From Flavobacteriales bacterium (GTDB lineage Bacteria > Bacteroidota > Bacteroidia > Flavobacteriales > UBA7312): a DNA stretch of 64,000 nt. The position numbers and the translations under genes are program-made. The DNA is taken from positions 1 to 64,000 of the forward strand of contig JADHMQ010000009.1 in the NCBI GenBank assembly GCA_016779935.1. The letters are read 5' to 3'. Position 1 is the first letter of the stretch; the number at the start of each line of letters is the position of its first letter. Below are positions 259-12,900 of this stretch, one piece after another. The notes under the pieces were generated by a model. That model saw nothing but the letters and a program-made list of their open reading frames with translations. It was not told the origin of the DNA and did no database searches.

Positions 259-302
259 TAAACAAAAACCCTTCTACTCAAAGAACGGAAGGGTTTTGTT
301 TA
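259..302 (-). terminator. Hairpin terminator downstream of the tRNA-like gene
   Basis: The arms TAAACAAAAACCCTTC (259-274) and GAAGGGTTTTGTTTA (288-302) pair with one bulged A, giving a long stem. Read on the minus strand it lies 3 bases beyond the 3' end of the tRNA-like sequence and its descending arm is T-rich, so it probably ends the transcript from the ammonium transporter/tRNA-like region. Confidence 0.7.
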
Positions 303-304
303 AG

Positions 305-415
305 CTGTACGGAAAGGATTCGAACCTATAAGTAGACGTTAGCACAAAAGTGTTTATCCGTTAAATCTACACCCTCGAGACAGGAGGGCATGTTTGCCAA
401 TTTCATCACCGTACA
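305..415 (-). tRNA. Long class-II tRNA-like gene, anticodon GUC; possibly non-standard or decayed
   Basis: On the minus strand the sequence folds as a cloverleaf. The acceptor TGTACGG (415-409) pairs 7/7 with CCGTACA (312-306), with discriminator G at 305 and no encoded CCA. The D arm is ATG/CAT around a Leu-like loop containing TTGG. The anticodon stem CCCTC/GAGGG has the 7-nt loop CTGTCTC, which places GTC at positions 34-36. The T arm carries the canonical TTCGAAT loop with one T-T mismatch in its stem. The variable region is about 40 nt, closed by GTAGA/TCTAC. GUC is the aspartate anticodon, but Asp tRNAs are class I with a short variable loop. Position 37 is T where a purine is normal. 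It lies 9 nt after the ammonium transporter stop. It could be a real odd tRNA, a tRNA-derived regulatory RNA or a pseudogene. Confidence 0.6.
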
Positions 416-424
416 ATAATAATA

Positions 425-1747
425 TTATACTATTTCCTCACCATGTTGTGAAAGGTCAAGGCCTCTTTCTTCTTGGTCTTGTCTAACACGCATTGGCAAA
501 ATAATGTCAACGATTTTATATAAAAGCAGCGAGCCAAAGAAGGCGAATACAATCACTATTACGCAGGCTATTAGGTGAAGTATAAAAGTGTTTACTTCTC
601 CGTATACTAAACCAACATCTTTGGCGAAAACTGCAGTAAGTATCATTCCGCAAATTCCGCCAATACCATGACTAGCGAATACATCTAAAGTGTCATCAAT
701 TCTATTCGATTTTTTGATTTTAATCATAGCAAGGTTGCACACTAAAGCAGTGATAAAACCAATTAAAATAGAATGAGGAATACTAACAAATCCTGCAGCA
801 GGAGTAATTGCAACTAAACCAACAATAGCGCCTATGCAAGCTCCAACAGCCGATATTTTTTTATTCAAAAACCTATCGAAAAGTACCCAAGTTATCATGG
901 AGCTTGCTGAGGCGATATTTGTGTTGGCAAATGCTATTACTGCATCGTAATTTGCTGCAAGTGCTGAACCCGCATTAAATCCGAACCATCCGAACCATAA
1001 TAGCCCTGTTCCTAGTATAATGAAAGGGATATTAGCTGGGTCGCTGTTTTCTTCTTTCCTTTTACCTAGGTAAAGAGCGCCAGCTAGTGCTGCTAAACCT
1101 GCAGACATATGAACAACAGTTCCGCCGGCAAAATCTAAAACGTGTAAGCCTTCAAATCCTGTAATGCCAATAACATTACCGAAATTGGCAAAAATACCTT
1201 CTGGCGACCACGTTGTATGAGCAATTGGACTGTATATAAAGATGCAAAACAATATCATGAATAATAAGTAGCTTCTAAACCGAATTCTCTCGGCAAAGCT
1301 ACCTGTAATGATTGCAGGTGTTATTATGGCAAATTTTAACTGAAATAAAGCAAATAATAAGTAAGGAATATTGCTGTTTTTAGAATCCAAATTATCAAGA
1401 CATAAGTGTTGTAGTGGATTTCCAATAATTCCCCATCCATTTACAGAATCCCCAAATGCAAGAGAGAATCCAAACAATACCCAAATTAATGAAATAATAC
1501 CCAAAGCGATAAAGCTTTGCAGCATAGTTGAAATAACATTCTTTTTATTGACCATTCCTCCGTAGAAGAAGGCTAAGCCAGGCGTCATAAGGAGAACAAG
1601 GGCACTGGCAACAATCATCCAAGCAGTGTCGGCACTATTAATGTCGACTGACTGCATGGGTGATGTTTGATGATTTGAAAAAAACAGTAACACTAGCATA
1701 ACTAGTGAAAGGATTATGAAAAATGTACGCCTATTATGAAAAAACAT
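425..1747 (-). CDS. amtB: Ammonium transporter (Amt family)
   Basis: This 440-residue membrane protein conducts ammonium/ammonia across the inner membrane. It has an N-terminal signal-like hydrophobic segment (about 8-24) followed by about eleven membrane helices. Family hallmarks are present: FFYGGMVNKKNV near 60-71, the AERIRF motif near 152, and DFAGGTVVH with Asp205. The twin pore histidines fall at about H213 and H360, nearly the same spacing as in E. coli AmtB. No glnK/PII gene follows it, which is unusual for amt loci, and I saw no sigma-54 type -24/-12 box upstream. The small gene upstream is 31 bp away on the same strand and may be co-transcribed. The tRNA-like gene starts immediately downstream. 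Confidence 0.95.
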   Translation of the reverse strand: MFFHNRRTFFIILSLVMLVLLFFSNHQTSPMQSVDINSADTAWMIVASALVLLMTPGLAFFYGGMVNKKNVISTMLQSFIALGIISLIWVLFGFSLAFGDSVNGWGIIGNPLQHLCLDNLDSKNSNIPYLLFALFQLKFAIITPAIITGSFAERIRFRSYLLFMILFCIFIYSPIAHTTWSPEGIFANFGNVIGITGFEGLHVLDFAGGTVVHMSAGLAALAGALYLGKRKEENSDPANIPFIILGTGLLWFGWFGFNAGSALAANYDAVIAFANTNIASASSMITWVLFDRFLNKKISAVGACIGAIVGLVAITPAAGFVSIPHSILIGFITALVCNLAMIKIKKSNRIDDTLDVFASHGIGGICGMILTAVFAKDVGLVYGEVNTFILHLIACVIVIVFAFFGSLLLYKIVDIILPMRVRQDQEERGLDLSQHGEEIV

Positions 1748-1778: not shown

Positions 1779-2030
1779 TTAGTTTAATGAGTAACAGATG
1801 TCTTTATTTTGACGATACTCATTAATCGTTCTTGGTTTTTTAGTCGGTTCATATGTCAAATCATAATTCTGAAATAGATTAATCAACGAATGATAAACGG
1901 GATCGTTTTGGTCGTAGGTATAATCCTTTCTTCTGTTATTGGTCAAGTATTTGACTTCGGTAATATGGTTTTTAGAGTCTAAAAAATATTCTGAAACCGA
2001 ATCTAAATGATGAACTGTTATTTTTTTCAT
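1779..2030 (-). CDS. Small hypothetical protein (83 aa)
   Basis: Not recognised. An upstream extension of 18 codons (to 2084) is open, but a TAAATTTG promoter box at 2054-2061 falls inside it, so the start at 2030 (MKKITVHHL…) is preferred. The protein is soluble, charged and rich in Tyr, Asn and Asp, with a 'YLTNNRRKDYTYDQ' centre. It has no signal peptide or membrane segment. It lies directly upstream of the ammonium transporter in the same orientation, so a shared transcript is likely, but a nitrogen-related role would be a guess. Confidence 0.55.
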   Translation of the reverse strand: MKKITVHHLDSVSEYFLDSKNHITEVKYLTNNRRKDYTYDQNDPVYHSLINLFQNYDLTYEPTKKPRTINEYRQNKDICYSLN

Positions 2031-2053
2031 ATCACACTTACTAACTAACTGCA

Positions 2054-2061
2054 CAAATTTA
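2054..2061 (-). promoter_or_regulatory. Bacteroidota -7 box (TAAATTTG)
   Basis: TAAATTTG matches the Bacteroidota -7 consensus TAnnTTTG. It lies 23 bases upstream of the ATG at 2030 and would drive the small gene and perhaps the ammonium transporter. No clear -33 TTTG partner is seen. Confidence 0.5.
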
Positions 2062-2207
2062 CATATATTTGCATCTATAAACATTAAATATAAACCATAA
2101 AATTAATAAAAAAGTCAAAATAAATTTAAATCAAACAATTAAAAGTCAAAATCATTTTTTAGATGTGTTTTTATAGCATTTATATTTAAATTTAAAATCA
2201 GATTACA

Positions 2208-2684
2208 ATGTCAAAGTCAACTTTAATAGACAAATTAGATTTAGAAATACTCAAATTATTGTCTCTAAATTCAAAAATTTCATTTTCAGAAATATCTAAT
2301 ATTCTAAAAGTTTCCAATACCACTATTCATGTAAGAATTAAGCGTTTGCAGAAGCTGGGCATTATTAAAAACTTTACTATTACCATTGATTATGATAAGC
2401 TTGGCTTCAATTACACTTGCTATATGGGCGTGTATTTGGATAAAGCGTCTAAATACGACCAGGCCTTAAAAGAGCTATTAAAGATTGACAACATTACGGG
2501 CATGGATTTCACAACAGGAAAGTCGAGTTTGTTCTGTAAAATTCGTGCTATTGACTCTAATGATGCTCGTCAAATTATCAGTAAAATACATAAAATAGAG
2601 GGTATAAACAGAACCGAAACCTTTTTCTCCCTTGAACAATTACTCAACCAAAAGGAAAGTCTATTATCTACAATTACCTTTTAA
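2208..2684 (+). CDS. Lrp/AsnC family transcriptional regulator
   Basis: This 158-residue protein has the standard two-part layout: an N-terminal winged helix (about 6-65, 'LDLEILKLLSLNSKISFSEI' followed by the recognition helix 'VSNTTIHVRIKRLQKLGII') and a C-terminal RAM effector domain (about 70-145). The length is normal for the family. Members bind DNA as octamers and sense amino acids or related metabolites. It is transcribed away from the small gene/amt pair, so that intergenic region is a plausible target, but the effector cannot be predicted. Confidence 0.93.
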   Translation: MSKSTLIDKLDLEILKLLSLNSKISFSEISNILKVSNTTIHVRIKRLQKLGIIKNFTITIDYDKLGFNYTCYMGVYLDKASKYDQALKELLKIDNITGMDFTTGKSSLFCKIRAIDSNDARQIISKIHKIEGINRTETFFSLEQLLNQKESLLSTITF

Positions 2685-11457: not shown

Positions 11458-12900
11458 TTAAAATTCCGCATTTTGAGGGTATCGTGGGAAAGGAATAACA
11501 TCTCTAACATTTTTCATTCCAGTTACAAACATTATTAGTCTTTCGAAGCCTAATCCAAAACCACTATGTGGGCATGTTCCAAACTGTCGTGTTTCAAGAT
11601 ACCACCACAATTCTTCTTGGTCAACATCCATTTCTTCCATTCTACTTTTAAGAATGTCCATACGCTCTTCCCTTTGTGAGCCGCCAACAATTTCACCTAT
11701 ACCGGGGAAAAGAATATCCATAGCACGAACGGTTTCACCATCTTCATTCATGCGCATGTAAAAGGCTTTAATGTTTTTTGGATAGTCAGTAAGAATCACT
11801 GGTTTTTTAAATTTCTTTTCTACCAAATAGCGTTCATGTTCTGACTGAAGGTCAGCACCAAAGCCTTCGATGAGGTATTGAAATTTCTTCTTTTGGTTTG
11901 GCTTAGAATTTCTAAGGATGTTAATAGCCTCAGTATAGGTCAGTCTTTCAAACTCATTTTCTGCCACAAAGTTGAGGCGTTCAATAAGGCTCATTTCTGA
12001 TTTTTGCTCTTTAGGAAGGTTTTTCTCATCATCAGTTAAGCGCTTGTCAAGGAACGTAATATCATCTTTACAGTGTTCCAAAACGTATTTGATGCAATAT
12101 TTTAGAAAATCTTCAGCCAAATCCATATTATCGTTTAGGTCATTGAAAGCCACTTCAGGCTCTATCATCCAAAATTCTGATAAGTGTCTAGAAGTATTAG
12201 AGTTTTCAGCTCTAAACGTTGGGCCAAAAGTATAGACCTGACCCAATGCCAATGCTCCTAATTCAGCTTCTAACTGTCCAGAAACGGTTAAGTTTGTTTT
12301 CTTACCAAAGAAGTCTTGAGTTTCATCCACATTACCATCCTCATCTTTTGGTAGATTGTTCCAGTCTAAATTACTAACTTGAAACATTTCGCCAGCACCC
12401 TCGGCATCAGCACCTGTAATAATGGGTGTATGAAGGTTAACAAAGCCCTTATCATTGAAGAATTTATGAATAGCAAAAGATAAAGCGTGTCTTACTCTGA
12501 AAACTGCACTAAAGGTATTCGTTCGGAAACGTAAGTGAGCTTTTTCTCTCAGAAATTCCAGACTGTGCTTTTTGGGTTGAAGCGGATATACATCGGCATC
12601 TGCTTCGCCAAGCACCTCAATCTCTTGAGCTGTAATTTCGACCTTTTGACCGCTTCCTTGCGATTCGACCAATGTACCTACGATACGCACACAAGCACCT
12701 GTTGTGATTTGTTTGATTAAGTCTTCCTCAAAAGAATCACTTTCGGCAACAGCTTGGATATTGTTTATTGTAGAACCATCATTAATAGCAATAAAAGAGA
12801 CATTTTTACTTCCTCGCTTAGTTCTTACCCAACCTTTTACACAAACGGTTTCCTTTAGGCTTTCACCTTTCAATAACGTCTTTACTTTGGTATGTTTCAT
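11458..12900 (-). CDS. asnS: Asparaginyl-tRNA synthetase
   Basis: A class IIb synthetase of 480 residues that charges tRNA-Asn. It has the N-terminal OB-fold anticodon-binding domain (about 15-105, '[20 protein letters not shown]') and a class II catalytic core. Motif 2 is '[19 protein letters not shown]' (about 227-245) and motif 3 '[12 protein letters not shown]' near the C-terminus. Length and C-terminus ([13 protein letters not shown]) are typical of AsnRS. It heads the asnS-rpoN-PAP2-like run, driven by the box at 12918-12925. Confidence 0.97.

Follow-up and report, generated by a model that had tools for sequence, protein, structure and literature searches.

A conserved class-II tRNA-like RNA of Bacteroidota and their phages, a candidate carrier for asparagine synthesis outside translation

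Asparagine synthesis on tRNA-Asn and the diversion of tRNAs from decoding are both already known. The peptidoglycan tRNA-Gly of Staphylococcus is a non-translating tRNA, and allo-tRNAs and similar natural tRNAs combine unusual cloverleaf proportions with Ser or stop anticodons. The pseudo-tRNA of Bacillus cereus is likewise non-translating (PMC3399842). In Bdellovibrio, Deinococcus and Thermus, a non-discriminating AspRS and GatCAB together make asparagine on tRNA-Asn (PMC4206432).

Here we describe a family of class-II tRNA-like RNAs found through a copy in the window, by which we mean the whole 64,000-nucleotide stretch of Flavobacteriales DNA that was analyzed. The family has the G34, U35, C36, C38 and G73 of ordinary bacterial tRNA-Asp(GUC). 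However, it differs from that tRNA in its class II arm, U1-A72, A10 or U10, lack of A37 and dispensable U33, and tRNA models miss it. Its D arm and variable-arm spacing are those of bacterial tRNA-Leu, from which it departs in having G73 instead of A73, a GUC anticodon and an elaborate arm. Like allo-tRNAs, it strays from the usual cloverleaf proportions, but its acceptor and T helices keep 7 + 5 pairs and its loop is fixed at (G)UC-C. In our proposed reading, it would also resemble the Staphylococcus and B. cereus RNAs as a tRNA gene diverted from decoding, although the amino acid type, fold class and partners would be different and the family spans a phylum and its phages. The same reading would parallel the tRNA-Asn pathway, with AspRS and then GatCAB acting on a U1-A72 RNA that is retained in bacteria also owning AsnRS and GlnRS (PMC4206432). 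In contrast to that pathway, whose carrier is the ordinary decoding tRNA-Asn (GUU, A37), the carrier here would be a separate class-II GUC RNA without A37, which would remove the need for a non-discriminating AspRS.

Anatomy of the RNA

The features of the locus, in window coordinates, are as follows.

305..415, minus strand: class-II tRNA-like RNA, 111 nt including the discriminator G73 (position 305), with U1 at 415
409..415, minus strand: 5' acceptor strand UGUACGG, from sequence reading and covariation
306..312, minus strand: 3' acceptor strand CCGUACA; the family hardly varies at U1-A72 and G2-C71
390..406, minus strand: Leu-type D arm AUG-AAAUUGGCAAA-CAU, with A10-U25
377..383, minus strand: anticodon loop CUGUCUC, with GUC at 381-379, U37 at 378 and C38 at 377
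332..370, minus strand: long variable arm with a GUAG/CUAC base helix, ACG/CGU, the conserved internal loop GAUAAA/CUAA and a CAC-UUUU-GUG hairpin
259..300, minus strand: terminator-like hairpin AAAACCCUUC...GAAGGGUUUUU, directly 3' of the RNA, read from the sequence
425..1747, minus strand: amtB, ammonium transporter (PF00909), ending 10 nt before the RNA
2208..2684, plus strand: Lrp/AsnC-family regulator gene (HTH_AsnC-type and AsnC_trans_reg), divergent from amtB and the RNA
11461..12888, minus strand: asnS (asparaginyl-tRNA synthetase), 11 kb from the RNA on the same contig

Direct reading of the minus strand from 415 to 305 confirms the class-II tRNA-like anatomy, GUC anticodon and variable arm of about 40 nt that an earlier note had assigned to 305-415. 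The full order is UGUACGG-UG-AUG-AAAUUGGCAAA-CAU-G-CCCUC-CUGUCUC-GAGGG-U-(39-nt arm)-UU-AUAGG-UUCGAAU-CCUUU-CCGUACA-G. The acceptor strands pair at 7/7 positions; U8 and G9 lead into the D stem AUG/CAU, which closes an 11-nt D loop, and the anticodon stem CCCUC/GAGGG encloses a loop that keeps U33 and has U at position 37. The 39-nt variable arm, with 1 nt before and 2 nt after it, sets the anticodon stem and T stem 42 nt apart, unlike the short class I variable loop of tRNA-Asp. The T stem AUAGG/CCUUU carries a U50xU64 mismatch and closes the T loop UUCGAAU, the discriminator is G73, and CCA is not encoded. The oddities listed in the earlier note (U37, A10-U25 and the single T-arm mismatch) are thus all present in this copy. 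In the variable arm, the base helix is supported by covariation, and the inner helices were read by eye.

Across the 163 distinct sequences collected, length ranges from 107 to 210 nt, with a single outlier of 76 nt. The D arm and the 1 + 2 nt spacing of the variable arm are those of the Leu tRNAs of host and phages, so the scaffold probably derives from tRNA-Leu. Most variable arms have an internal loop AUAAA opposite CUAA, and phage and many host copies bear a terminal module around GGGUUGACCAC; the variable-arm module is absent from many members. In the variable arms of L039-L067, short palindromes that differ between copies (UUGUGCACAA, GCUUGCAAGC, GCUAGC) come after the GGGUUGACCAC module and could be a hairpin or dimerization site. 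A small hairpin insert in the D loop, such as AAAAGCGUACGCACGGCAGA, occurs in several phage and host copies (L040, L052, L058, L065, L067; L243, L253, L267). The D-arm pattern TGATGRAAYTGGCARACAT was discarded as a family probe; it matches mostly ordinary phage tRNA-Leu and is useful only for showing the scaffold.

ARAGORN called no tRNA in the window, an Rfam scan left the element unmatched even at E<=5, and an RF00005 search of the whole host genome at E<=0.1 returned 32 tRNAs without it. Known Rfam families gave no match at E<=0.5 to 5, the remaining matches being sub-threshold or ordinary tRNAs elsewhere in the loci. ARAGORN, one of the tools that the earlier note had suggested for verification, misses the element; purpose-built covariance models recover its family. 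The same note had proposed counting the host's Asp, Leu and Ser genes; ARAGORN typing of the RF00005 loci includes an ordinary tRNA-Asp(GUC) along with Leu and Ser sets that look complete, so the element is an extra RNA and not the host's Asp tRNA. Its folding energy is unremarkable (MFE z-score -1.06); the case therefore rests on conservation, and energy was left out as evidence. ARAGORN types one relative, the 76-nt copy at L397:2339-2414 (minus strand), as tRNA-Asp(atc); this copy has lost the variable arm and has the loop CUAUCUC, and two other genomes of its genus (G544, G714) have the loop CUCUCUC.

Conservation, neighboring genes and phage copies

The 163 distinct members come from Bacteroidota chromosomes, including a second class of the phylum, and from dozens of phage contigs. 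Among 60 relatives searched by blastn, 10 genomes, the window's own included, carry the element; identity to the window copy falls from 98% within its genus to 85-86% in a second genus of the family and 77-80% in another family of the order. The copy in the second genus again sits behind amtB, the position at which the earlier note had proposed looking for orthologues, and the second family has two tandem copies in three genomes. A covariance model built from these relatives (R1) scored members above 92 bits, against 50-60 bits for ordinary Leu tRNAs, across 396 genomes of the order. Exact-pattern scans placed the element on 43 viral contigs and matched at least 119 stretches in genomes of Bacteroidota, with carriers in Chitinophaga, Niastella, Niabella, Segetibacter, Cyclobacterium, Algoriphagus, Belliella, Marivirga (three copies), Flammeovirga pacifica, Portibacter, Saprospiraceae and Flavobacteriales UBA7430. 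A second model (R2) found it in 43/392 well-assembled genomes of the phylum; in the other class one family was positive, carrying as many as three copies in tandem. Copies on chromosomes keep their location and are often multiple. Five stand in tandem in F. pacifica (L290, 3688-4630), which suggests that dosage matters. A blastn search against INPHARED phages and PLSDB plasmids gave zero matches.

Paired positions covary. In alignment A2 (117 distinct aligned rows, including seven lower-scoring rows that resemble ordinary tRNAs), 99.3% of paired cells pair, and compensatory changes occur in 23/24 pairs, in 308 cells against 57 in shuffles. The seven rows were excluded from A3, the training set of R2, and from the base counts over 163 sequences. 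Phylum-wide conservation and covariation of the stems bear out the earlier argument against long-standing decay, and we conclude that the element is a real, conserved tRNA-like RNA gene. Other identities were rejected. A 26-codon peptide frame starting at an ATG in the D arm of the window copy is broken by indels in relatives, and its third codon positions are no freer than the other two, which indicates constraint on RNA. Mimicry of the anti-Shine-Dalgarno sequence (CCUCCUGUCU compared with 16S CCUCCUUUCU) breaks down in the other class (CCGUCCAGUCUC) and at covarying stems. A tmRNA identity was also dismissed, despite one phage copy beside a tmRNA.

In the window, the gene order is Lrp/AsnC (plus), amtB (minus), RNA (minus); a 101-codon open reading frame between the first two (1779-2084, minus strand) has no Pfam match. 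By ORF clustering, the commonest neighbor is a regulator of the Lrp/AsnC family (55/80 host loci), which in most cases lies immediately upstream in divergent orientation and which recurs in the other class of the phylum. It was not found at Saprospiraceae-like and some other loci (L397-L400, L402-L411). In E. coli, asnC and asnA form a divergent pair of regulator and asparagine-synthesis gene; the parallel with the Lrp/AsnC-RNA pair is attractive and proves nothing.

The viral copies match IMG/VR, and their flanks encode terminase, DNA polymerase and DnaB helicase. No constant protein partner appeared among the flanking ORFs, in keeping with an RNA that relies on host enzymes. The RNA sits in phage tRNA arrays, and one phage (L065) has an ordinary tRNA-Asp as well. 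On contig L046, a tmRNA and the RNA share a tRNA cluster (1839-2335 and 2461-2604), and the phage copy L103 near 806-955, whose loop is CGGUCAC and whose arm module is shortened, looks decayed.

Fixed bases and co-occurrence with GatCAB

A37 and U33 are needed for decoding, and the family holds to neither: position 37 is U in 152, C in 7, G in 4 and A in none of the 163 sequences, and U33 (151/163) gives way to A, C or G in whole lineages. At the acceptor end, U1 is found in 162/163 and A72, G2-C71 and G73 in all 163, while U35, C36 and C38 are each invariant (163/163). Position 34 is G in 159, C in 2, U in 1 and A in 1. Of the four exceptions to G34, one (AUC) is the arm-less L397 copy, and the other three are UUC or CUC, Glu anticodons; we count these three in favor of a GatCAB connection because Glu is the second amino acid on which GatCAB acts. 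The A3 part of the set was collected largely by loop-dependent patterns, whereas the A4 part (57 sequences) was found by covariance model only, with a mild bias from the model's training on the pattern set; A4 loops differ at positions 32, 33 and 37 (CAGUCUC, UCGUCUC, CGGUCUC, UUGUCCC, UUGUCGC), and GUC is present in 53/57 and U35, C36 and C38 in 57/57.

The bacterial Asp identity set comprises G73, G10, G34, U35, C36 and C38 (PMC9976931), all kept by the family except G10 (14/163). Measured against tRNA-Asp, the family thus has the GUC anticodon, C38 and G73, but it does not maintain the A37 and U33 required for decoding, G10, or the G1-C72 of bacterial tRNA-Asp (PMC9976931), for which the window copy has A10 and U1-A72. 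Compared with tRNA-Leu, it has the D arm and the long arm with 1 + 2 nt spacing but G73 (163/163) for A73 and UC at 35-36 in place of a Leu anticodon. Judged as a tRNA-Ser, it has G73, G2-C71 and a large variable region but A72 (163/163) instead of C72, and no Ser anticodon among the 163.

Bacterial GatCAB recognizes U1-A72 in its substrates (PMC4206432), a pair present in 162/163 members. In the host, U1 is otherwise found only in tRNA-Gln and tRNA-Asn, and bacterial tRNA-Asp has G1-C72; we therefore examined the co-occurrence of the RNA and GatCAB, scored by a gatB search. All 43 RNA-positive genomes of the 392-genome sample have gatB. In many bacteria the lack of GlnRS makes GatCAB necessary, so the informative set is the Bacteroidia with GlnRS. 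Among 99 such genomes, 35 have both RNA and gatB, 61 have neither, 3 have gatB alone and none has the RNA alone, so that the two states agree in 96/99 (Fisher 1e-23, a statistic that ignores phylogeny). Both are jointly absent from some genera of two families (G397, G695 and G504 in f17; G411 and G498 in f18) whose other genera have both, and the link is therefore not merely one deep split. The three genomes with gatB alone (G118, G142, G255; family f3) have a gatB that scores clearly lower (about 1e-105) and may be divergent or transferred. In other classes, GatCAB without the RNA is common, and the combination is also seen in Bacteroidia that lack GlnRS (G048, G432).

AsnRS was found in 20/20 genomes examined, and GatCAB therefore looks dispensable for ordinary tRNAs in genomes with GlnRS. 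The window's genome has GatB and AsnRS and lacks GlnRS, AsnA and AsnB. In several RNA-positive genomes AsnB models do find matches, so asparagine supply cannot be the sole reason for keeping the RNA there. The genome-wide asnS search also gave a weak AspRS-like match just past the window (C9 71250-72875).

A candidate non-decoding carrier and its alternatives

We lean, slightly more than evenly, towards a dedicated non-decoding carrier that would be charged by AspRS and amidated by GatCAB to Asn-RNA, with a loop that would bar it from the ribosome. After CCA addition, G34, U35, C36, C38 and G73 would let the cell's AspRS charge the RNA to Asp-RNA; the U1-A72 end would then mark it for GatCAB, which would convert it to Asn-RNA at the expense of glutamine. 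A GUC RNA bearing asparagine would introduce errors at Asp codons, which would explain why the decoding bases are disabled: the lost A37, relaxed U33 and bulky variable arm may together exclude the RNA from the ribosome. The Lrp/AsnC neighbor probably sets its level, and phages may carry it because host enzymes alone suffice. The output is the least certain step. It may be free asparagine, which would be of use where AsnA and AsnB are missing, as in the window's host, or it may be a signal of nitrogen or aspartate/glutamine, or the transfer of Asn to some other target. A counterpoint to aspartylation is that G10 and G1-C72, which are helpful to E. coli AspRS, are absent; AspRS would also have to accommodate the long variable arm. 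The fuller proposal is tentative, and we place it somewhat short of an even chance: an undescribed RNA cofactor, loaded with Asp by a discriminating AspRS and amidated by GatCAB off translation, that would serve asparagine supply or nitrogen sensing in Bacteroidota and act in phages as an auxiliary metabolic RNA gene.

Among the alternatives, an aspartylated but unamidated tRNA mimic, which would bind or titrate AspRS or report the aspartate/nitrogen state as a regulatory RNA under Lrp/AsnC, is unlikely but has the fixed AspRS identity bases, the drifting decoding bases and the Lrp/AsnC and amtB neighbors in its favor. Neither the fixation of U1-A72 nor the joint presence and absence of the RNA and gatB in Bacteroidia with GlnRS is explained by it. 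The earlier note's tRNA-like regulatory RNA comes nearest of its three readings, although the pattern of conserved bases is a more specific pointer, to aspartylation followed by amidation.

An extra translational Asp tRNA, used for example under starvation or, in phages, to resist anticodon nucleases, is improbable. GUC in 159/163 members, the presence in phage tRNA arrays, and the loop changes by which known phage tRNAs evade such nucleases (cf. PMC10264068) would fit. However, A37 is never seen and U33 is replaced in several lineages, which also makes the earlier suggestion of a tRNA misreading GAC codons unlikely; the bulky arm, U1-A72, the ordinary tRNA-Asp of phage L065 and the positional conservation and frequent multiplicity of chromosomal copies argue against it further.

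Quite improbable is a small RNA that is never charged, owes its stability to a borrowed tRNA scaffold and acts purely by base pairing or as a protein sponge. The divergent regulator gene, the terminator, the tandem copies and arm modules that no synthetase needs (the AUAAA/CUAA loop and the GGGUUGACCAC module of phage and many host copies) are consistent with it, but the fixed bases are a synthetase identity set plus the amidotransferase mark, and the variable-arm module is missing from many members.

Charging by SerRS through the long arm and G73, whatever the loop, for a non-ribosomal use is very improbable. The bacterial Ser identity set does include G73, G2-C71 and a large variable region (PMC9976931), but it also lists C72 where the family has A72. 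Moreover, U35, C36 and C38 are invariant though SerRS does not need them, even in the L397 member without an arm, and the arm is spaced as in the host Leu tRNAs, with 1 nt ahead of it and 2 nt behind. Finally, a decayed Leu tRNA with GUC by chance (the earlier note had allowed for Leu or Ser) could draw on the Leu-type D arm and arm spacing and the U50xU64 mismatch of the window copy, but it is refuted for practical purposes by compensatory changes in nearly every pair and by conservation that spans families and extends to a second class.

Full-text searches of open-licence PMC papers turned up no description of a distinct class-II, non-decoding RNA devoted to tRNA-dependent asparagine synthesis, and the family is absent from Rfam 15. 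If the carrier proposal is true, a tRNA-shaped RNA made for a metabolic reaction rather than for decoding would be widespread in a major bacterial phylum, and a metabolic RNA would be added to the cargo of Bacteroidota phages. It would also offer a rationale for the retention of GatCAB by many Bacteroidota that have both GlnRS and AsnRS, a puzzle that has been raised for other bacteria (PMC4206432).
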